A stretch of DNA of 38,382 nt from the IMG/VR virus record IMGVR_UViG_3300043331_000832, positions 1 through 38,382 of that record; one strand, 5' to 3'. Positions 1,320 through 38,382 of the stretch are shown in pieces. The position numbers and the translations under genes are program-made. Position 1 is the stretch's first letter, and each line of letters opens with the position of its first letter. Under the pieces are notes generated by a model. That model was not told the DNA's origin and searched no databases. It saw only the letters and a list, made by a program, of their open reading frames with translations. Source of the stretch: a virus.

Positions 1320-4300
1320 CTAGAACGGCACCCCTGCGGTTTGAGAAATGCTGGTGACCGGCACGTTATTGATGTGGGTGATCGACGTTCTCGACACTCC
1401 GGCAACGTGACTGATCACGCCAGTGGTATCAGTGGGGGTGGGCAGTGGAAGTACAAAGACCAAATTCAGGGTTGCGGGAGTGATATTTGCACTTGCGGTG
1501 ATCGCGGGCGTCGAGACGTTCCAGTCCCGAGCAATGACCGCAGGTGTGACATTGGCCGAAGCGGTGACCGAAGGGGTCGGCAAAGCAAAGACCCTTGCGA
1601 CCGGTGACGGTGTGACCGTCGAGGTGGCAGTCGGTGCTGGGTTGTTGTGAGTGAAGATCCCAGCCACCGGGGCAGGGGTGCGGGTCCCGGTGGCAGTGAC
1701 CGTCGGCGTGTTGAGGGTGAAGGCCCGAGCAATCGTGGTCGGAGTAATCTGACTTCCTGCGGTGACCGGAGGCGTCGGAACCGTGAACGTCCGGGCGATG
1801 GCTGCGGGCAGCGCCACCTCTCCGGTGGTGACCGTCGGAGACTGAACGACGAAGACCCGAGCAATGGCGTCGGGGGTGATGTTGGCGGTGGCGGTGTGGC
1901 TGGGGGTGTTGAGCGCAAACGCTCGATTGACTGGGGCTGGTGTGATTTCTGCGGAAGCAGTGACACTTGGGGCATTCAGTGTGAAAGAACGAGCAACAGT
2001 CGCAGGCGTCATGCTGCTGGAAGCAGTGGCACTTGGCGTTTGAACGGTTACAGCAGCAGGCACTGGGGCCGGCACGACATCGGCCGATGCCGTGACCGTC
2101 GGAGCATTGACGGTGAACGATCGAGCAACTGTGGCGGGAGTGACGTTGGAAGTAGCGGTTGGGCTAGGCGTGTTGACGGTGAGGACCCGAGCAATAGTCG
2201 CCGGGGTGGCATCGGTCGAGGCGGTGACCGTTGGCGTGTTGACCGTAAAGACCCGAGCCACAGTGGTAGGGGTGACGTTGGCCGAAGCCGTGACCGTCGG
2301 CGTATTGAGGGCAAAAGCGCGGGCGACGGTGGCGGGGGTGATCTCTGCTCCCGCGGTGACCGTCGGCGTGTTGACGGTGAAGGCCCGAGCAACGGTGGCG
2401 GGGGTGACTTCGCTGCTTTCAACCACCGTCGGCGTGTTGACGGTGAAAGCCCTCGCCACCGTGGCCGGAGTGACCTCAGCCGAGGCGGTGACCGTCGGCG
2501 TGTTGATGGCGAAGGCCCGAGCAACGGTGGCGGGGGTGATCTCTGCTCCCGCGGTGACTGTCGGCGTGTTGACCGCAGAAGTGACAGCGACAGGATCAGG
2601 TTCAGTCTGGGCCGAGGATGCAGGAGCCACCGCCGGGTACAGCATGAGGACGCCGACCGCGGAGGTGGCCGACGAGCCGGTCCCAGACTGAGAGGCAAAG
2701 TTGCCGGAAGAGGTGTAGGCGTTGAACGGCGGGGCGGGACCGTCGGCGTGGGTGTCCACGTCGGCCCAGCCGAGGGCCAAGCGGATGGTCTGGCCACCGG
2801 AAACCCCGGTGGACATGGACGTGAAGCCGTCAGGGAGGGTGATAGCCCCGTCGGCGTTGCTGGCCCCGATCCACACCGCGGTCTGGCGCTGCCCGAAGAT
2901 CGTCTGCGCCGGAGCAGGCATATCGGTCGAAGCCGACGAGTTGCCCTGCCCAGACACAAAGCCGACCCACTGCTTGTCGACCCGGAACATGACTCCGGCC
3001 ATGATCCCCGCAGTGCTCTTAGTGACCGTCAGGTTCCCCGACTCGGAGCCAGTCGCCACTTTGTGAAGCACCCGCCCAGAGATGGAGGCCACCACCCCGA
3101 AGTTGGTCTGTGTGACATCCCAATCGGTGGCCGACACCGTGCCGCCGTTCTTTGGGGCAATCACACAGTACAGGTGCTCCCCCGCCTGGATGCCCGAGGG
3201 ATAGGGCACGTCGATGGTTGTTGAGGAAGCGGTCTCGACCGCGGTGCCGACACCCAGGATCGCGGGCGCTGCCCGTTCGGTGGTAAGCGGCGTCGAATCG
3301 GCTTCGATGATGACGCCATCCATGACGCCAAGACCCTCATCGGTGTCGGCGGCAACATCGATCTGGACGCCATGAACCGGTGAGCCGAGAAGCTCAGCCG
3401 GGATCTCACACGGACCAAGAATGGTTTCACCGTTGACTTCGACGGCCACAAAACCATCGACCGACCGGAGCAGGATCTCGTCGGTGGGTTCGGGGTACAC
3501 CGTGGCGAGTTGGATTTCCAAGTAGGAAAAGTCCTCTTGAGCCTTGCCGATCAGCCCAAGTTCAGCCCACTGGAAAGGTGGCGGCACGAACCACGCTGAA
3601 ATCCCAAGATAGGTACTTTCGGTGTCAATGTGGAGCGTGCCACCGAAGGCCGGAAGGTCCGGATCCGAACCGGTGTACATCGACCCGTCGTAGCGAGCAC
3701 GAACATCGTCAGTAAGAGTGCGGGTGTTGCGCCAAGCCAAGCCCCGCCGCCCGCCTCCGTCAACAAAGTCTTGATCCGGCCCCCGGAAATCGACTACCGC
3801 AAGCTTGCCGCTGACGATTCCCATCTCGTCCTGGCTGTCGGGATAGTCCAAGAACATATCCCGCAAGCCAGTAGCCGCCGGAATCGGGCCATCGGAGTAG
3901 ATCGAGAAGTCAATCGTGAACGGGCCATCGGCATGGCCGGTGACGTAGGGTTGTCGAACAATCGAAGTAACCGCGATAGGATCGGGGGTCGGGCTGGCGC
4001 TTTCGGTTGGTGTCGGTGTGTTGAGGGTGAAAGCGCAGGCGATGGTGGCGGGAGTGATATCGGCCGAAGCAGTGACGGTCGGCGTGTTTACTGTGAAACT
4101 TCGAGCAATGGTGTCAGGGGTCTCATTGACATCGCCCGCCGCCAGCCGCAGCCGGATGAAGGACATGACCCCGGCCCCGTTGGTGTCGCCGCCCGTGACC
4201 GGCAGCGCCCCGTCCGGCCCGGCCGAGGCGGTGCCCGACGAGTAGGCCATGTCGATGACGTGGCCCCGCAGGTCGGTACCGGAGGAGGTGGTGCCGTCGA

Positions 4301-4880
4301 GCCGGGTGTTGGACGACCCGAAGGTCACCCCGCTGACGGTGCAGGTGTGGGTCCCGAGGGTGCCGAGGTCGCCGTTGACGCTGCCGAACGAGATCAGCCA
4401 GTCGCCGGAGGCCAGGGCGATCGTGGTGCCCGACGCCGCGGGGTTGCAGCCGGTGTTGCTGACCGAGTTGTCCGCCGCGCTGGCCCCGGTCGGGGTGTCC
4501 CAGGACTCGCCGCCCCCCAGGCTGTAGGAGATGGCGCCCCGCATGGTGCAGTTCGGGGTGCCGGTCAGGTCGACGGCGGGCATGGTCGACCACCCGGCGT
4601 CCTTGATCCGGTAGTAGACCGCCATCCCGACGTTGCCCTCGTCGTTGGAGCCGTTGGTCAGCCCCGAGTTGGCGACCGACGTGTTGGCGACCAGTGTCCA
4701 GTCGGTGGGGGTGTTGGCCGACACGCTGCCCGTCCCCGACCCGTACTTCCAGATGACGAACAGCAGCACCATGTCGCCGTTCGTGGTCGTCCCCCCGGTG
4801 GCCGGGAGGGCGGGCGCCGACATCGGGTCGGTGGCGCCCCCAGAGGCGATCTGAGTGGTGGCGCGGAGAGCGATGGCCAT
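1320..4880 (-). CDS. Large repeat-containing tail fibre / adhesin
   Basis: This 1186-residue protein is the last of the tail genes and probably contacts the host surface. Residues 1 to about 250 look like a beta-sandwich domain. A short repeat block follows, then a LamG/concanavalin-like region (about 305-535, rich in Trp, Gly and Asp) and a second beta-sandwich domain (about 540-760) resembling the first in layout. Residues about 772-1145 are seventeen tandem 22-residue repeats of the form TPTVTASAxxTPATVARxFTVN. The end (about 1150-1186) is unique. It lies just after the small tail protein ending at 4893, with an ATG start at 4880 and a weak GGTGG upstream. The first 740 bases are clearly more GC-rich than the rest, which suggests module exchange. 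The fibre role follows from position, size and repeats, and no receptor is known. Confidence 0.75.
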   Translation of the reverse strand: MAIALRATTQIASGGATDPMSAPALPATGGTTTNGDMVLLFVIWKYGSGTGSVSANTPTDWTLVANTSVANSGLTNGSNDEGNVGMAVYYRIKDAGWSTMPAVDLTGTPNCTMRGAISYSLGGGESWDTPTGASAADNSVSNTGCNPAASGTTIALASGDWLISFGSVNGDLGTLGTHTCTVSGVTFGSSNTRLDGTTSSGTDLRGHVIDMAYSSGTASAGPDGALPVTGGDTNGAGVMSFIRLRLAAGDVNETPDTIARSFTVNTPTVTASADITPATIACAFTLNTPTPTESASPTPDPIAVTSIVRQPYVTGHADGPFTIDFSIYSDGPIPAATGLRDMFLDYPDSQDEMGIVSGKLAVVDFRGPDQDFVDGGGRRGLAWRNTRTLTDDVRARYDGSMYTGSDPDLPAFGGTLHIDTESTYLGISAWFVPPPFQWAELGLIGKAQEDFSYLEIQLATVYPEPTDEILLRSVDGFVAVEVNGETILGPCEIPAELLGSPVHGVQIDVAADTDEGLGVMDGVIIEADSTPLTTERAAPAILGVGTAVETASSTTIDVPYPSGIQAGEHLYCVIAPKNGGTVSATDWDVTQTNFGVVASISGRVLHKVATGSESGNLTVTKSTAGIMAGVMFRVDKQWVGFVSGQGNSSASTDMPAPAQTIFGQRQTAVWIGASNADGAITLPDGFTSMSTGVSGGQTIRLALGWADVDTHADGPAPPFNAYTSSGNFASQSGTGSSATSAVGVLMLYPAVAPASSAQTEPDPVAVTSAVNTPTVTAGAEITPATVARAFAINTPTVTASAEVTPATVARAFTVNTPTVVESSEVTPATVARAFTVNTPTVTAGAEITPATVARAFALNTPTVTASANVTPTTVARVFTVNTPTVTASTDATPATIARVLTVNTPSPTATSNVTPATVARSFTVNAPTVTASADVVPAPVPAAVTVQTPSATASSSMTPATVARSFTLNAPSVTASAEITPAPVNRAFALNTPSHTATANITPDAIARVFVVQSPTVTTGEVALPAAIARTFTVPTPPVTAGSQITPTTIARAFTLNTPTVTATGTRTPAPVAGIFTHNNPAPTATSTVTPSPVARVFALPTPSVTASANVTPAVIARDWNVSTPAITASANITPATLNLVFVLPLPTPTDTTGVISHVAGVSRTSITHINNVPVTSISQTAGVPF
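1446..2567 (-). repeat. Seventeen tandem 66-bp (22-residue) repeats in the fibre gene
   Basis: The register is exact: seventeen units of 66 bases fill 1446-2567 with no insertion or deletion. The consensus unit is TPTVTASAxxTPATVARAFTVN. Conserved positions are Thr-Pro at the start, T-x-T-A at 3-6, Thr-Pro at 11-12 and Val/Ile-Ala-Arg at 15-17. Units nearest the N-terminus are most alike. Later units diverge, as expected of an array that grows at one side. A decayed partial copy of the same repeat lies at about 3960-4130, after the first domain. Confidence 0.9.
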
Positions 4881-30356: not shown

Positions 30357-30614
30357 CTAGATAGCGATGGTTTCCGGCAACTCGTGCTGCTTGGTTTCTA
30401 CTTGCGAATGGACAATCCGAACTCGATGTCGCCGGAGGCACTCCCGACAAGTGATGTAAGCTTCCCCAGCAGTGATGACCACCTCGGCGTACAACCGACC
30501 GCCCTTCCACGTCTTAACGTGGACAAACCCATTCCCCTTAGCGTCCCTGCCCGCCATCGCCAAAAGCGGCTGGCGACTACAGAAGCATCGAATATGAAGA
30601 TCATCCATGGTCAC
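30357..30614 (-). CDS. Small zinc-knuckle protein (Com-like)
   Basis: The 85-residue protein has two cysteine pairs: a CFC motif near residues 10-12 and CREC near 56-59. Between them is a beta-rich region with NGFVHVKTWKGGRLYAEVV. The spacing (CxC...LLA...C-x2-C) recalls Mu Com, a zinc-binding translational activator, although this protein is longer. Its ATG overlaps the portal stop by four bases. A role in tuning expression of neighbouring head genes is possible, but it may be only a structural or DNA-binding protein. Confidence 0.65.
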   Translation of the reverse strand: MTMDDLHIRCFCSRQPLLAMAGRDAKGNGFVHVKTWKGGRLYAEVVITAGEAYITCRECLRRHRVRIVHSQVETKQHELPETIAI

Positions 30615-32275
30615 CCCCGAAGGGCGTCAATCTCCGCATCGATGAACCGACCAAACAAGGCCATGAAGTCCTGCGGCCCATCGAATTCATTGGGTCCAAT
30701 AGCCAACGCATCCGCCATCCAGGCTTCAGTTCTCTCATAGAACCGGTCGGCTGCCGATTCGGCCGCTTCGCGAGCCATACCTTCCGCGCAGAGTGATTCT
30801 ACGAAACGACGGTGATAACCCAACTTGGGAGTGAACGCATCGGTACCAAAGCGGTTCTCCCGCCACGCCTTCTCCACCTGGCCCTGAATCCGATTGCTGA
30901 TCTGGCGAGCAGTAGCTCTTGGCTCGCCTACGGTCGCTGGCCCATCCACCCCCGGCCTGTCCCGCTGACCCCGATCATCCTCAGGCGCAGAATCCTGCTG
31001 AACCTGACGAAGCTCCTTGACTGTCATGCCGAGAGCCAAACCAAGTTCATCAACATCAACCCCGACCCGCCCACCGCGAAGGAGTTCTTGAATGACCGCA
31101 CGAATGGTTTCCGTGTTTTGCTTGCCCTGACGACGGAACTGCCACTGACAAGTCGGGGCATTGGGCGTAAAGTTGAAACCCTTCAGGCGCTCACAGATGT
31201 AGCGATCGATGTACTCCTTCATATCGCCAGCTAGAGCGTTGAGAGTCCAAAGCCAGGTTTGCGTGTGCTGAACACCAAGGGCATTGGATCCAACATCACC
31301 CGTCCTGAACAGCAGAATGGGCGTGAACAGCGCCAGCGACATCTCCTCATCGAGACGAGACAAGTACCGCTCAAAATCAGCGCCCCGCATCTGTGATTCC
31401 AAGTATTCGATGTCGTAATCGTAAGCTGCGGTGTTGCCCACCTGCATCCGCGTAGAAGGCAAAGTCACCACACCACGAGAACGAAGGGTCCCGAGAATCG
31501 TCGCCATGGCATCCCGGCCAGAGACGAAAGTCCCATCCTCCTGCTCGATCATGTCCTCAAAAGGCGCACGACCAATGGGCGTCGGCTCACCGAATCGCTC
31601 GTAGTACCGATTGGCAAACAGATGCACAAGAGTTGAAAAGTACCAGGGAGCGAACGCCGACTTGAGAAGCTGGCGACCGTAGTAATCGCCGTTCTCCATC
31701 AAGATGGGATACCAGAGCGTGTTCTCAACAGGAATGTTGGGAACGCCATGCTGCCGAATCCCATCGTAGATCTTGAATTTGGGCGGAAGCGTGTTTGCTG
31801 GCGCCCAACCCTTCACTTCCTTCCACTTCACATTGCATTCTTCCGGAACGAGATCCTTGAACTTGCTGATCTCGACATACCCCGTGATGGCGTTGTTCTC
31901 GTATTCGATGGCGATCGGTGAATAGCCCGCCCACAACGATTGCGACATCGCCCTGATCAAGCGCGTCCACATCCGCCGAAGGTTGTCCTCCACCATGTTC
32001 TGGATCTTGGAGTCTTCACATTCGATCCACCAATCGATCTGGTGGAGCATGAACGTCAACAAGCTGAGCGAAGCATTGATCTGCGGGTGATACCGCATCG
32101 CCCGGTAGTCAGCCAGAGTTAGCGCATCCAAGTTGAACTGAAGGATCGCTCCACCAGGGAGTTGATTGAAGATAACGTCTCGCCCGGCCCAATCACCGAA
32201 AGCTGGACCCAGCTTGGGGGCCGGAGCCTTTTTGAAGGTGTCGAGTGGTTGACCATTGGGACCGAGCAAGGTCAT
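30611..32275 (-). CDS. Portal protein
   Basis: The 554-residue protein forms the dodecameric channel through which DNA is packaged. It contains NASLSLLTFMLHQIDWWIEC (about 67-86), MSQSLWAGYSPIAIEYENN near 110-128 and a YLSRLDEEMSLALFTPILL segment near 300, all typical of DUF935-type portals. After about 430 there is a charged linker, then a helical tail (TARQISNRIQGQVEKAWREN) extending the usual core. It overlaps the large terminase gene by four bases (ATGA). Confidence 0.88.
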   Translation of the reverse strand: MTLLGPNGQPLDTFKKAPAPKLGPAFGDWAGRDVIFNQLPGGAILQFNLDALTLADYRAMRYHPQINASLSLLTFMLHQIDWWIECEDSKIQNMVEDNLRRMWTRLIRAMSQSLWAGYSPIAIEYENNAITGYVEISKFKDLVPEECNVKWKEVKGWAPANTLPPKFKIYDGIRQHGVPNIPVENTLWYPILMENGDYYGRQLLKSAFAPWYFSTLVHLFANRYYERFGEPTPIGRAPFEDMIEQEDGTFVSGRDAMATILGTLRSRGVVTLPSTRMQVGNTAAYDYDIEYLESQMRGADFERYLSRLDEEMSLALFTPILLFRTGDVGSNALGVQHTQTWLWTLNALAGDMKEYIDRYICERLKGFNFTPNAPTCQWQFRRQGKQNTETIRAVIQELLRGGRVGVDVDELGLALGMTVKELRQVQQDSAPEDDRGQRDRPGVDGPATVGEPRATARQISNRIQGQVEKAWRENRFGTDAFTPKLGYHRRFVESLCAEGMAREAAESAADRFYERTEAWMADALAIGPNEFDGPQDFMALFGRFIDAEIDALRG

Positions 32276-34137
32276 CGGCTTCTCCCTCTGGAGGGCGGAT
32301 TCCAGCTTGTTGCACCCACGGGCGGGAGAGGTGCCCTCATGGCCCCAATGCCACCAACGAGTTCAGGTCGGAGCAGACCTTCGCCTGCAACTGCATCCCC
32401 ACTTCCCTTCAGGGCATCCAATCGAACAACCTTGCGACTGTAAGTTCGGTCACCCATCAAGGTGTAGGTAACACCCGCAACGGCGTCAGCTATATCTTTA
32501 CTTCCACCGTGAGGGTGATCAACTTTGGTGCCATTGTCTACCAGTTCTTCCAGTTCCTTAACCAGCACCTCGGTCAGTTCCATGGAGCTTTCGTTCAACT
32601 TGACCAAATACTGGGGAAATTCGATTCGGTCTTCATAGATAGCTTCCCGTAGGTCGTAGTACGGGAGCATCTGCTTGTCCACCGACACGAGTTCAGTCTG
32701 GATTCTCTTGCGTTCAAGTTGTTGCATGGTATCGGTGGACTGGAATCCGTCCATCGTGACCTTTGTGATGCGGAACTTTCGCTCGTCTCTCAGCCAGTAG
32801 ATGATCCGCCGCACATCCCCAAGAAAGATTTCACGCCCAGCGGGCGCGTGGATCCGCATGACCAGATCAATGACGATGTAAGGCTTGTGCTCACCGTCGA
32901 TCTCGACGGTTTCACGAACATGCCCCATGGCCAGACCAAGACCATCACCGTTGGCACTGTAGGCGAGGTCGATGTGCGCCACACGCTTGAGCGGATCCTG
33001 ACATCGGAACCAGTCGGCCATTCGGTTCTGGGCGTCGACCGGAGAGGTGATCACTGGAACAAGTTCATCACTTCCGGTCACGTACCCCGGATTCTGATGA
33101 GCCAGCCAACGCTCCCGAGCCTCAGTGATCTTGTAAGTCAAAGAGATGAACGGCGAACCGGTGAGGGGCGGGATCCCCGCCAGATCCCGAAGCGCCTTCT
33201 CTGGATTGTTTAGGAAGTCCTGCTTGTAGGTGTTGGGGATCTCGATGAGGTTGTCCGTCGATCCTTTGATCAACTTCGCCGCCCCACTCGGAATGATGTC
33301 GTGCCGCTTAGTGTCGTACCAGAAAGAATCTCTGGTCCCGTCTTCGTTCAAGTACCGATCCCAGCCAAAGGACTCCCAAATCGCCATCCGGACGGCGTAG
33401 GCCCCCGGATCATCAAGAAACTCCTTGTACTTCTTCGCAGCAAAGCCATTCCCCTTCTTCATTTGCCCAATGACGAGAATGAATCCACGCTCTTCGAATC
33501 GAGAAGTGATTCGAGAATAGATGGTTGTATAGCCTTGCTCGGCGTAATCCTTGGTGTCGGTTACCTGATGAGAATCGGCCTCATCCAAGATCCCGCCCAG
33601 GATGTTGTAGCCCTCAAAGGTAGTTTCGGCTGAGTCGCCAGGAAGGATCCAGACTTCTTTCTCGTTGAATCGAAGCTGAGTCTTGAAATTCTTGTCGTAG
33701 GGATACTTGGATTGGAACCAGGGGGAATGATCAATCCGAGCCTTGATGTCACCAAAGACCACCTGTTTGGCCTGCGGGCCAGAAGTAGACATCTGCATGA
33801 ACGCGATTCGGGATCCGGGCAGAAGCTCAAAAAACTCTTGGGGGTTCTGAAGGCACAACACCCAATGAGCGAGGTAAGGCAGGACAATGCTGGCAATGGT
33901 TGTCTTGCCAATTCCGATGCCACCCGTGATCATCGCCCGCTGGTAACGAGTCAGGTGATAACCGTCGCTCTCCTCCCCCATGATGGCGACAAGTTCCTTG
34001 AGGATGGACTTACGAACCCGCTTCTCGATGTTCAGGTAGTTCGGACCAACGAACTCTTTGATGGTCGCTGGCCGTTCCTCGAACTCGGGATGAGCCTGAA
34101 GCCACTTGAGTTCTGGCTCAAGGTCATCGAGGTTCAC
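32272..34137 (-). CDS. Terminase large subunit
   Basis: The 621-residue protein is the DNA-packaging motor and nuclease. The N-terminal ATPase has a Walker A GGIGIGKT at residues 72-79 and Walker B GGILDEAD near 180-187. The C-terminal RNase H-like nuclease shows HIDLAYSANGDG (Asp near 386), TMDGFQSTDT (near 463) and KDIADAVAG (near 550), giving the expected acidic triad. It begins two bases after the upstream gene's stop. The last 60 residues are a basic, Pro/Gly-rich tail. Confidence 0.92.
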   Translation of the reverse strand: MNLDDLEPELKWLQAHPEFEERPATIKEFVGPNYLNIEKRVRKSILKELVAIMGEESDGYHLTRYQRAMITGGIGIGKTTIASIVLPYLAHWVLCLQNPQEFFELLPGSRIAFMQMSTSGPQAKQVVFGDIKARIDHSPWFQSKYPYDKNFKTQLRFNEKEVWILPGDSAETTFEGYNILGGILDEADSHQVTDTKDYAEQGYTTIYSRITSRFEERGFILVIGQMKKGNGFAAKKYKEFLDDPGAYAVRMAIWESFGWDRYLNEDGTRDSFWYDTKRHDIIPSGAAKLIKGSTDNLIEIPNTYKQDFLNNPEKALRDLAGIPPLTGSPFISLTYKITEARERWLAHQNPGYVTGSDELVPVITSPVDAQNRMADWFRCQDPLKRVAHIDLAYSANGDGLGLAMGHVRETVEIDGEHKPYIVIDLVMRIHAPAGREIFLGDVRRIIYWLRDERKFRITKVTMDGFQSTDTMQQLERKRIQTELVSVDKQMLPYYDLREAIYEDRIEFPQYLVKLNESSMELTEVLVKELEELVDNGTKVDHPHGGSKDIADAVAGVTYTLMGDRTYSRKVVRLDALKGSGDAVAGEGLLRPELVGGIGAMRAPLPPVGATSWNPPSRGRSR

Positions 34138-34139
34138 GG

Positions 34140-35408
34140 CTAACCGCCAGCCGCAACCGCAGAAATGGCCTTGGCCTGATCCTTCGGCGGGAGTTCAAGA
34201 ATCTTCTTGATCATCTCGGGAGTGATATCGCCCCTGGCCACCCCTCGCTCCTCAAGCTCCTTGGCGATGTGGGCCATGAGTTCCCGTGCCGACTTCCCGC
34301 TGATAGAGCCATCAATGGCCAGGATGTTATTGGTCATCTTTCCATTGGCCGCCAACGTTGGATCGATCAACTTGGCAAGCTTGACGCCCTGATCGAACAG
34401 CGTCGTCCCAAGTTTTGTTACTTCAGGGTCGAGCATCGTGGCCTCGTCCTCAGAATCGATGCCCTTGGCAAACCTCCCAGACTGAATCTCCAGAAGCTTT
34501 CCTAGGGCATCGATGATCTGATCGGAGTCACGGGTACCGAACAGATTGGCAAGTTCTGCAACCTCTGCATCTGGCACGGAACACACACTCCCCACTCGAA
34601 AGTACCGACAGCCGCTCTTCAGCGAACAAGTGTCACACAGGAACCTATCACCCTCAACCGGCTTGATGTTCTTCAACATGATCCGAGTGGCCTGAGGCAC
34701 ATCGAATTCGGCTGCATCCGGGTTGATCGGATTATCCCGAACGAGAAACTTAACATTCTTGCGATAGTTCTCCGCTGCCCACCACGCTGACCGGATGTTG
34801 TACATGCACCGATTTCTGGGAACGGAAAGGTCACCGAGTCGCATACCGATCATTTCGATCCAACTGCGGTGCTTCTCGAAATCTTGTCGCTTGATGATCA
34901 ACCCCGAAGGCAGATCAATACGACCCTTGGACGCCGAGGCACGGAAATCGATGTCTGCGGACCCAAATCCAAAGCCAAAGCAAAGCCGGAACGAATACAA
35001 GCCATGAACATGGATGAAAGAATCAGGATACTCGTCCTGCATTCGGCCAAGTTCAGCAAGAAACTGCTTACCCACGGGAGATTTATCAGGAAGATCTATA
35101 ACAACCACGCCCCCCGAAGCGATCGCATTGACCAGTTCAGGCCAGGAGCCGCCGTAGGACCACACCGGATACTCGCGACATGGGTTCTTGGGAGTACAAG
35201 AACGACAAGTAATTGTGGCCCTGGCGTTGCCGGGATCCACCACCAACGACTGGTAGTTCCCCGCCGGAAGGTAAAGATTGATGAACTTATCAGGGTCAAC
35301 GCTGAGATTCTTGAGATACCCAATGTTCCACGAGAAGTTGGTCATCCCAACCTCTAGGCACTCTTTGATGTAGTACCTCGGATTACGTGCCCAGACTTGG
35401 ACCGCCAT
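34140..35408 (-). CDS. Cys-rich protein upstream of the large terminase; terminase-small-subunit candidate
   Basis: The product has 422 residues from the ATG at 35408 (a GTG at 35426 is also possible, and neither has a clear ribosome site). The N-terminal roughly 230 residues show an alternating alpha/beta pattern with FIHVHGLYSFRLCFGFGFG and PRNRCMYNIRSAWW. There is an early cysteine group C-x2-C-x5-C and a second CDTC...C...C cluster near residue 260, so it may bind zinc or an iron-sulfur cluster. The C-terminal 150 residues are helical, with GTRDSDQIIDALGKLLEI and a FDQGVKLAKLIDP motif. It lies immediately before the large terminase, the normal place of the small subunit, but it is much longer than usual. 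Confidence 0.6.
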   Translation of the reverse strand: MAVQVWARNPRYYIKECLEVGMTNFSWNIGYLKNLSVDPDKFINLYLPAGNYQSLVVDPGNARATITCRSCTPKNPCREYPVWSYGGSWPELVNAIASGGVVVIDLPDKSPVGKQFLAELGRMQDEYPDSFIHVHGLYSFRLCFGFGFGSADIDFRASASKGRIDLPSGLIIKRQDFEKHRSWIEMIGMRLGDLSVPRNRCMYNIRSAWWAAENYRKNVKFLVRDNPINPDAAEFDVPQATRIMLKNIKPVEGDRFLCDTCSLKSGCRYFRVGSVCSVPDAEVAELANLFGTRDSDQIIDALGKLLEIQSGRFAKGIDSEDEATMLDPEVTKLGTTLFDQGVKLAKLIDPTLAANGKMTNNILAIDGSISGKSARELMAHIAKELEERGVARGDITPEMIKKILELPPKDQAKAISAVAAGG

Positions 35409-35449
35409 GGGGCGGCACGGTAACACATGAAAGGTTCAATTGGGTAGAC

Positions 35450-37492: not shown

Positions 37493-37664
37493 CCACCTTC
37501 CTTCCGGACTGGCTGCCTGTAGGAAGTTTGGGGGAGCGATCCGGCATTTCGATGCCGGATCGCTCTACTTCCGGACGGCCCAGGAACAGGCGAACCGTAA
37601 GATGCATCAGATCTCGGATCTTTTCGGTCTTGAGAGCATGCATGAGGGCATGACCGATGTTCAC
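37473..37664 (-). CDS. Small ORF between the two replication genes (uncertain)
   Basis: This would encode 63 residues (MNIGHALMHALKTEKIRDLM...). The GTG overlaps the primase stop (GTGA), AGGAGAGG lies about seven bases upstream, and its end overlaps the next start, so its placement looks genuine. The first half is helical and plausible. The second half covers a perfect 14-base inverted repeat and is low in recognisable content. It may be real, or the hairpin may be the functional element and the frame a bystander. Confidence 0.45.
   Translation of the reverse strand: MNIGHALMHALKTEKIRDLMHLTVRLFLGRPEVERSGIEMPDRSPKLPTGSQSGRKVDGPYPT
37534..37565. repeat. Perfect 14-bp inverted repeat with TTCG loop
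   Basis: GAGCGATCCGGCAT (37534-37547) and its exact reverse complement (37552-37565) flank TTCG. The stem-loop lies inside the 63-residue ORF between the primase and the primase/helicase gene. On the minus strand the loop is CGAA. A run of C follows, not U, so it is an unusual terminator if it is one. Operator, attenuator or replication-linked roles are possible. Confidence 0.75.
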
Positions 37665-38382
37665 CTGATCGCCTCTCCTGCCATGGCGACCAACGGATCG
37701 ACTTCTCGAAGTTGGTCATACGGGCAGTCGTTTCTAACAAAGTAAGAACGATTTCCTGTCTTTCGATTGATGCCGAGTGGCAACTTCATCAAATTCCCCA
37801 AGTCTTTCCCGTTGAGGGAATCCTGCTTGGGAAACATTTCGACTTCAACGTTGCTCTCCCAATGCGCTGATCGGAAGAACACATCCCCTCGTGAGGGTTC
37901 CAACCCTAGTCGATCGAGCACCGTGCGACCGGCAGCACGGAGCGTGTGTGCCGACCGCTGACCGGTGAACACGTAGACATGAAGACCTTTGCCGCCAGAG
38001 TTGGCAATGGCCACCGGACAACGAAAATACCTTTGCGCCCCGAGAGCAATGCCTTCAGCCACGCAACGCAGGTTGATGCACAGATACCGCCACCGGGGGT
38101 CGTTCTCGTCCAGCCACACGTCCCGAGGGTTGCAGGGGGCGGGGTCGCCCTCATCGGTGCCGACCATCGGGACGAACGGCGGATCAGCCTTCGGGTCCGG
38201 TTTCCGCAAGTCGATATCGAAGGCCAACAGGCGAGTCTTGTCGTCTGAGTCGAGCAAGTAGTGCCCGTAAGTTCGCTTCCCGCCCAGATGATCAAGAAAG
38301 TCCTGCAACGTCCACGGATGGCGATCCGGTGCCCAGGAGCCGTCGTTGTGCTGGACAGCTTTCACGTCCCGCCGCTGGACAA
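37661..38382 (-). CDS. AEP-type DNA primase/polymerase (partial, N-terminus cut off)
   Basis: At least 234 residues of an archaeo-eukaryotic primase are present. Motif I is FDIDLRK (Asp-x-Asp) and motif II is NSGGKGLHVYVF (Gly...His). A NVEVEMFPKQD segment and the NLMKLPLGINRKTGNRSYF ending are also typical. The frame continues to the window edge without a stop, and the GTG at 38365 has no ribosome site, so the true start lies outside. It should make primers or short DNA chains at the phage fork. A CHC2/DUF3987-like partner follows, which suggests a split primase-helicase system. Confidence 0.82.
   Translation of the reverse strand, partial: VQRRDVKAVQHNDGSWAPDRHPWTLQDFLDHLGGKRTYGHYLLDSDDKTRLLAFDIDLRKPDPKADPPFVPMVGTDEGDPAPCNPRDVWLDENDPRWRYLCINLRCVAEGIALGAQRYFRCPVAIANSGGKGLHVYVFTGQRSAHTLRAAGRTVLDRLGLEPSRGDVFFRSAHWESNVEVEMFPKQDSLNGKDLGNLMKLPLGINRKTGNRSYFVRNDCPYDQLREVDPLVAMAGEAIR

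Follow-up and report, generated by a model that had tools for sequence, protein, structure and literature searches.

Phage small terminases of known structure use helix-turn-helix (HTH) domains for DNA recognition. A phage small terminase (TerS) normally combines an N-terminal HTH with a helical-hairpin core in a protein of 15–21 kDa (PMC9611059). There is precedent for an added DNA-recognition domain, as the TerS of Bacillus phages Sam46 and Sam112 carries an FtsK_gamma domain (PMC8190038). In tRNA-guanine transglycosylases (TGT), Asp280 is the nucleophile and Asp102 acts in the second step, and the eukaryotic TGT has a non-catalytic partner subunit, QTRT2 (PMC6165067).

Here, we analyse a protein of 422 residues encoded directly before the large terminase (TerL) in IMG/VR virus record IMGVR_UViG_3300043331_000832. 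The stretch analysed, termed the window, comprises 38,382 nucleotides and is a partial, 38-kb fragment; the contigs of relatives reach 71–84 kb. The evidence suggests that an enzyme fold has been recruited to choose DNA for packaging: that of the transglycosylases which exchange guanine in tRNA (TGT) and in phage DNA (DpdA, the DNA 7-deazaguanine transglycosylase).

The gene and its neighbourhood

34140..35408, minus strand: whole gene (422 aa) at the small-terminase position, encoding a predicted TGT/DpdA-like barrel and a Cys4-helical domain
32272..34137, minus strand: TerL large terminase (phrog_2, E 1.1e-19; GTG start)
30611..32275, minus strand: portal protein (phrog_113, E 2.5e-65)

The open reading frame (ORF) runs on the minus strand from an ATG at 35408 to a stop at 34140–34142. 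An alternative GTG start at 35426 would lengthen it; the ATG matches the N-terminus of the closest relatives ('MSTEVWFRNP'). Because full-length homologues at 22–42% identity occur in both isolates and IMG/VR contigs, the ORF is genuine and no chance reading frame. The initial annotation had singled out a long, Cys-rich gene before TerL, of a length unusual for the small-terminase position. That description was accurate: the protein has 422 residues, two Cys clusters and an HVHG motif at residues 133–136.

The GTG start of TerL lies 2 nt past the stop of the 422-aa gene. Downstream of TerL in the window are the portal and then a head protease (phrog_976); upstream, on the same strand, are a helicase/primase-like protein and an AEP-type primase. 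The latter (37661–38365, minus strand) is of the AEP-TOTE type (PF22548, E 9e-19). The primase and helicase genes point away from the terminase genes in most relatives and are co-directional in the window and in one related locus (L018). Elsewhere in the window (1320–4880, minus strand), a 1186-residue protein carries many degenerate 'TPATVARAFTVNTPTVTAS' repeat copies.

Profile scans of IMG/VR supplied 46 related loci; a single-protein scan of viral contigs and two genome-contig scans returned no relatives. A TerL homologue, 44–64% identical to that of the window, lies downstream of the family gene in 46/46 loci, with a portal next in every contig that extends far enough. In about half of these loci, the family gene abuts or overlaps TerL; in the others, 0.1–1.7 kb of varied genes separate the two. 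By eye, this gap hotspot holds papain-like proteases, nuclease-like and HNH-like proteins and small membrane proteins (L038, L045, L065, L016, L055, L069). The possibility that a true TerS hides in the gap was rejected, as the gap genes vary and none is conserved. Since TerL follows in every locus and the gap genes are unconserved, the family gene is the constant upstream partner of TerL.

Homologues and their annotation

Two PHROG profiles match the protein: phrog_6902, labelled 'terminase small subunit' (E 3.8e-43, in two stretches, the best spanning residues 119–410), and phrog_16015 (E 5e-20). In tblastn searches, Gordonia phages aligned at 99% coverage, with residues 5–422 aligned to phage Woes. 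Among Gordonia, Tsukamurella and Rhodococcus phages, the phage collection holds 116 records with a homologue; in 94, the match covers 80% of the length or more, at roughly 22–26% identity. RefSeq calls these homologues 'terminase small subunit', a label taken from gene position for which no supporting experiment was found. A whole-length match to a small-terminase family, the outcome that the initial annotation had set against its own proposal, therefore exists in phrog_6902 and the tblastn alignments; the family name hides an N-terminal barrel. No Pfam, PHROG or NCBIfam model that we used flags this barrel, and no paper in the literature searched describes a TGT domain as part of a small terminase.

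Pfam and NCBIfam returned no match above cut-off, and no HTH family was found in either. A Prim-Pol Pfam match (E 0.069, below cut-off) was dismissed as noise. The N-terminus of phrog_16015-type proteins (GordTnk2, Jumbo) is related to the window family at E 2.3e-7, versus only E 0.021 to DpdA. In Rhodococcus phage ReqiDocB7 (L007:152-1548), a frameshift splits one gene into what RefSeq lists as a pair of 'terminase small subunit' genes, and the absent Cys4 region is readable in a different frame. The pair was consequently rejected as proof of separable domains.

A predicted transglycosylase-like barrel

34764..35408, minus strand: predicted TGT/DpdA-like TIM barrel, residues 1–215 (AlphaFold2, VIA, hhalign to DpdA)

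An AlphaFold2 model built with 47 sequences gives residues 1–215 a pLDDT of about 95. In a VIA comparison of this model with the PDB, all of the best 50 entries listed are TGTs, with Z up to 13.2; other TIM barrels fall below the listed range. The best entry, 2z1x, aligned over 207 residues (Z 13.2, rmsd 3.5 Å, 11% identity), and the archaeal 1iq8 reached Z 13.0. A viral structure library returned phage queuine/queuosine tRNA-ribosyltransferases (E 2.7e-5 to 1e-3); with the window family set aside, these are the named matches up to E 0.001, alongside unnamed proteins.

Profile comparison points the same way. With hhalign, the N-terminal domain matched a profile of 24 phage DpdA sequences at E 9.2e-6 (probability 83), and the close clade alone did so at E 4e-6. 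The controls against DpdA were clean: 0.87 for the reversed profile, 0.07 for the best of 30 column shuffles, and 0.26 or worse for TerL, helicase, portal and primase profiles. In this alignment, which spans only the second half of the barrel, HVHG falls opposite the HGFG of DpdA, and Asp152 opposite the aspartate in its SVD(S/T) motif. The Gordonia-only N-terminus is undetectable against DpdA (E 0.16), so that branch is tied to DpdA via the close clade. PDB sequence searches with the family or its C-terminus gave weak, chance-like matches only. The same search with DpdA gave no TGT match, and thus the link to TGT is by fold only.

We therefore assign residues 1–215 to a TGT/DpdA-like TIM barrel by predicted fold and profile comparison, which bears out the hunch of the initial annotation that this region recalls TIM-barrel transferases. 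The likeness could instead be a generic TIM-barrel resemblance of a domain unrelated to TGT or DpdA. Foldseek alone found nothing in the PDB under E 0.001; TGT ranked third (E 0.009) amid other TIM barrels, several families of which had similar E-values. Pfam was also silent, and identity to TGT is 8–11%. However, a generic barrel would sit poorly with 50 listed VIA entries that are all TGTs, TGT-like matches in the viral library, a DpdA profile match with clean controls, and a second domain common to DpdA-like proteins. We consider it very unlikely.

The cysteine clusters and the helical C-terminus

35178..35207, minus strand: first Cys cluster, C-x2-C-x5-C, residues 68–77 (not conserved, column counts)
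34650..34763, minus strand: low-confidence linker, residues 216–253 (pLDDT under 50 across most of 219–260)
34581..34637, minus strand: Cys4 site, C-x2-C-x5-C-x8-C, residues 258–276 (column counts, hhalign)
34365..34526, minus strand: predicted helical hairpin, residues 295–348, possible oligomerisation core
34146..34289, minus strand: conserved, modelled C-terminal helices (ELEERGVARGDITPEM), residues 374–421, possible TerL contact

The two Cys clusters noted initially fared differently. The second is invariant, with C258, C261, C267 and C276 present in 47/47 aligned sequences. The first (C68, C71, C77) is not conserved: C68 and C77 are essentially confined to the window, and C71 recurs in Gordonia and Tsukamurella phages and one other sequence. 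Its spacing is that of the first three cysteines of the Cys4 site.

The Cys4-helical domain is shared with DpdA-type proteins. It matched phrog_887-type DpdA by hhalign at E 5.7e-8 (reversed, 0.41), and PHROG models of the window family and the DpdA type cross-match weakly in both directions. In Streptomyces phages GiJojo, Alone3 and BRock, this segment forms the C-terminus of a DpdA-like protein; in Bacteroides phage BS162P1, it is a separate gene directly after dpdA. The BS162P1 pair (L074:2665-4297, OP172706), in which the dpdA is unannotated, occurs in a genome that has QueD and FolE, and may form a two-gene DNA-modification unit with the Cys4 protein as a partner of DpdA. In the GiJojo (L015:5005-6510) and Alone3 (L076:1001-2497) proteins, whose annotations read dpdA-like or hypothetical, Ala replaces the nucleophilic Asp (SVAST). 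QueC, QueD and FolE are absent from GiJojo, and these proteins are possibly inactive DpdA relatives.

A model of the C-terminal part alone has long helices at 295–323 and 328–348, numbered as in the full-length protein, and three C-terminal helices. Foldseek and VIA gave no informative match to it; known TerS folds were absent from the results, which is uninformative. The helical, terminase-like C-terminus described initially is thus helical in the models, and its terminase-like character is unsupported. As the region lacks an informative fold match and is common to DpdA proteins, only the position of the gene and the labels of its family speak for the term 'terminase-like'.

Catalytic positions and enzyme activity

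35001..35012, minus strand: HVHG, residues 133–136 (aligned with HGFG of DpdA)
34953..34955, minus strand: Asp152, predicted equivalent of the DpdA/TGT nucleophile (hhalign, column counts)
35211..35252, minus strand: probable site of the TGT Asp102 motif, a strand and the next segment, residues 53–66 (DSSP of the model, column counts)

By column counts, Asp152 is present in 39/39 close relatives and in 0/8 Gordonia/Tsukamurella sequences, which have Cys or Ser there. H133, H135, G136, E/D154, R156 and G162 are also strongly conserved in the close clade. At the presumptive Asp102 place, the window has D58-P-G, and relatives mostly G-x-Q-G-T-A-E. D58-P-G may or may not be equivalent to the DSG motif of TGT. 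Relatives mostly lack an Asp at this presumptive position, and the second catalytic residue appears unconserved. The order of strands in the model suggests that the barrel is one strand short. Strand C-ends show no enrichment of conserved positions, the observed value being equalled or exceeded in 99 of 214 circular shifts; we therefore claim no preserved pocket from overall conservation.

As the window is only a 38-kb fragment, gene absence was judged in the relatives of 71–84 kb. QueC and QueD are absent from 8 such contigs and 10 isolates, and FolE from the same 8 contigs and 6 of the isolates. The searches recovered their positive controls: CAjan for all three genes, Sonali for QueC and QueD, and BS162P1 for QueD and FolE. 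No additional DpdA was found in these near-complete genomes. Host precursors might stand in for phage-encoded synthesis in some DpdA phages. Given the partial loss of Asp152, the apparently unconserved second Asp and the absence of 7-deazaguanine synthesis genes, ordinary TGT/DpdA chemistry appears unlikely for the window family. The invariance of Asp152 in the close clade and a D58-P-G near the DSG place leave room for catalysis in the window branch.

These results bear on the initial proposal that the protein links packaging to an enzymatic activity. A transferase-type fold is predicted, as that proposal implied; the activity is unproven. In its strongest form, an active barrel would attack guanine in phage DNA via Asp152 and so couple modification to packaging; it might act solely close to the packaging start, or depend on a base from the host. 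The conserved Asp152 and its neighbours, the D58-P-G of the window and a Cys4-helical domain common to DpdA-like proteins would fit such an enzyme. Against it stand the relatives' lack of synthesis genes or a further DpdA, the Gordonia/Tsukamurella branch without Asp152, the mostly non-Asp residue at the base/proton-transfer position, the seemingly missing strand and, in a simple test, the unenriched strand C-ends. On balance, an active enzyme is distinctly improbable. We give similarly little credence to a packaging subunit that uses the Asp152 site to flip out guanine where packaging begins, or to sense or exchange it there, such that the chemical state of the DNA licenses packaging.

Proposed role in packaging

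We lean towards the view that the 422-aa protein serves as a small-terminase-like subunit that recognises DNA through an exapted TGT/DpdA barrel, which is probably non-catalytic. TerL downstream in all 46 loci, the lack of a conserved alternative small subunit in between and the family label match argue for the small-terminase-like role. The loss of Asp152 in Gordonia and Tsukamurella phages, although the gene keeps its place, argues for the non-catalytic reading. Around the observed gene order, predicted fold, DpdA profile homology, shared Cys4-helical domain and catalytic-position loss, we infer DNA binding, oligomerisation, TerL contact and lack of catalysis. In this model, the barrel would bind phage DNA by the nucleic-acid face of the TGT fold, without normal base exchange. 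The Cys4 site (258–276), a putative metal site, would join the barrel to the helical part, the hairpin (295–348) may make oligomers, and the last helices (374–421) could pass DNA to TerL.

The lack of an HTH counts against a small-terminase role; the C-terminal fold matched no solved TerS, which is uninformative. The protein might instead be a DNA-binding or former modification protein travelling with the terminase operon, with TerL or another protein recognising the DNA. Its 422 residues (versus the usual 15–21 kDa; PMC9611059), a label that rests on position, the genes interposed before TerL in about half of the loci and the occurrence of the same C-terminal domain in DpdA-like genes away from terminase genes would all suit a passenger of this kind. 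A mere passenger is harder to reconcile with the constancy of the pairing: the gene accompanies TerL in isolates and in 46/46 loci, with every gap gene variable, and it persists in the branch that lacks the catalytic Asp. We consider it unlikely.

If a small-terminase-like subunit is the correct reading, the barrel would be a new DNA-recognition fold for viral packaging and a tRNA/DNA-modification enzyme family would have turned into a packaging part, and a modification–packaging link would be directly testable in laboratory Gordonia phages. In this widespread phage group, known from 116 phage-collection records and dozens of contigs from the environment, a transglycosylase-type barrel appears to take the place of the HTH. 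The annotation can also be corrected, as the 'terminase small subunit' label misses the N-terminal TGT/DpdA-like barrel.

Comparison with known systems

The closest described proteins are those of the phrog_6902 phages (Gordonia Woes, Monty and GTE7; Tsukamurella TIN2/TIN4; Rhodococcus ReqiDocB7). They belong to the same full-length family, with the same place before TerL and the same Cys4 site. They differ from the window protein in sequence (22–28% identity), their annotations are silent on the barrel, and the Gordonia and Tsukamurella members have lost both Asp152 and HVHG.

DpdA (CAjan, PaMx25, Sonali, BS162P1; phrog_887) shares a homologous barrel, an HG motif, an Asp at the nucleophile position and a Cys4-helical domain, either fused (GiJojo, Alone3, BRock) or adjacent (BS162P1). 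In contrast to DpdA, the window family has no conserved DSG motif, a shorter barrel, relatives without a 7-deazaguanine pathway and a fixed place before TerL. TGT (PDB 2z1x, 1iq8) resembles the window barrel in predicted fold, at Z about 13 over 207 residues, but identity is only 8–11% and the catalytic set is incomplete.

Classical TerS proteins (lambda gpNu1, P22, Sf6, PaP3) share the gene position and possibly a helical hairpin core. In the window protein, a predicted barrel replaces the HTH and the size is more than doubled. Lacking both the HTH and the 15–21 kDa size, it is not filed as a classical TerS, although a hairpin core is possible. Unlike the window barrel, the added domain of Sam46 and Sam112 is a winged helix on a recognised Terminase_2 domain. 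QTRT2 offers a parallel of a TGT barrel without catalysis, but one that works in tRNA modification rather than in DNA packaging.
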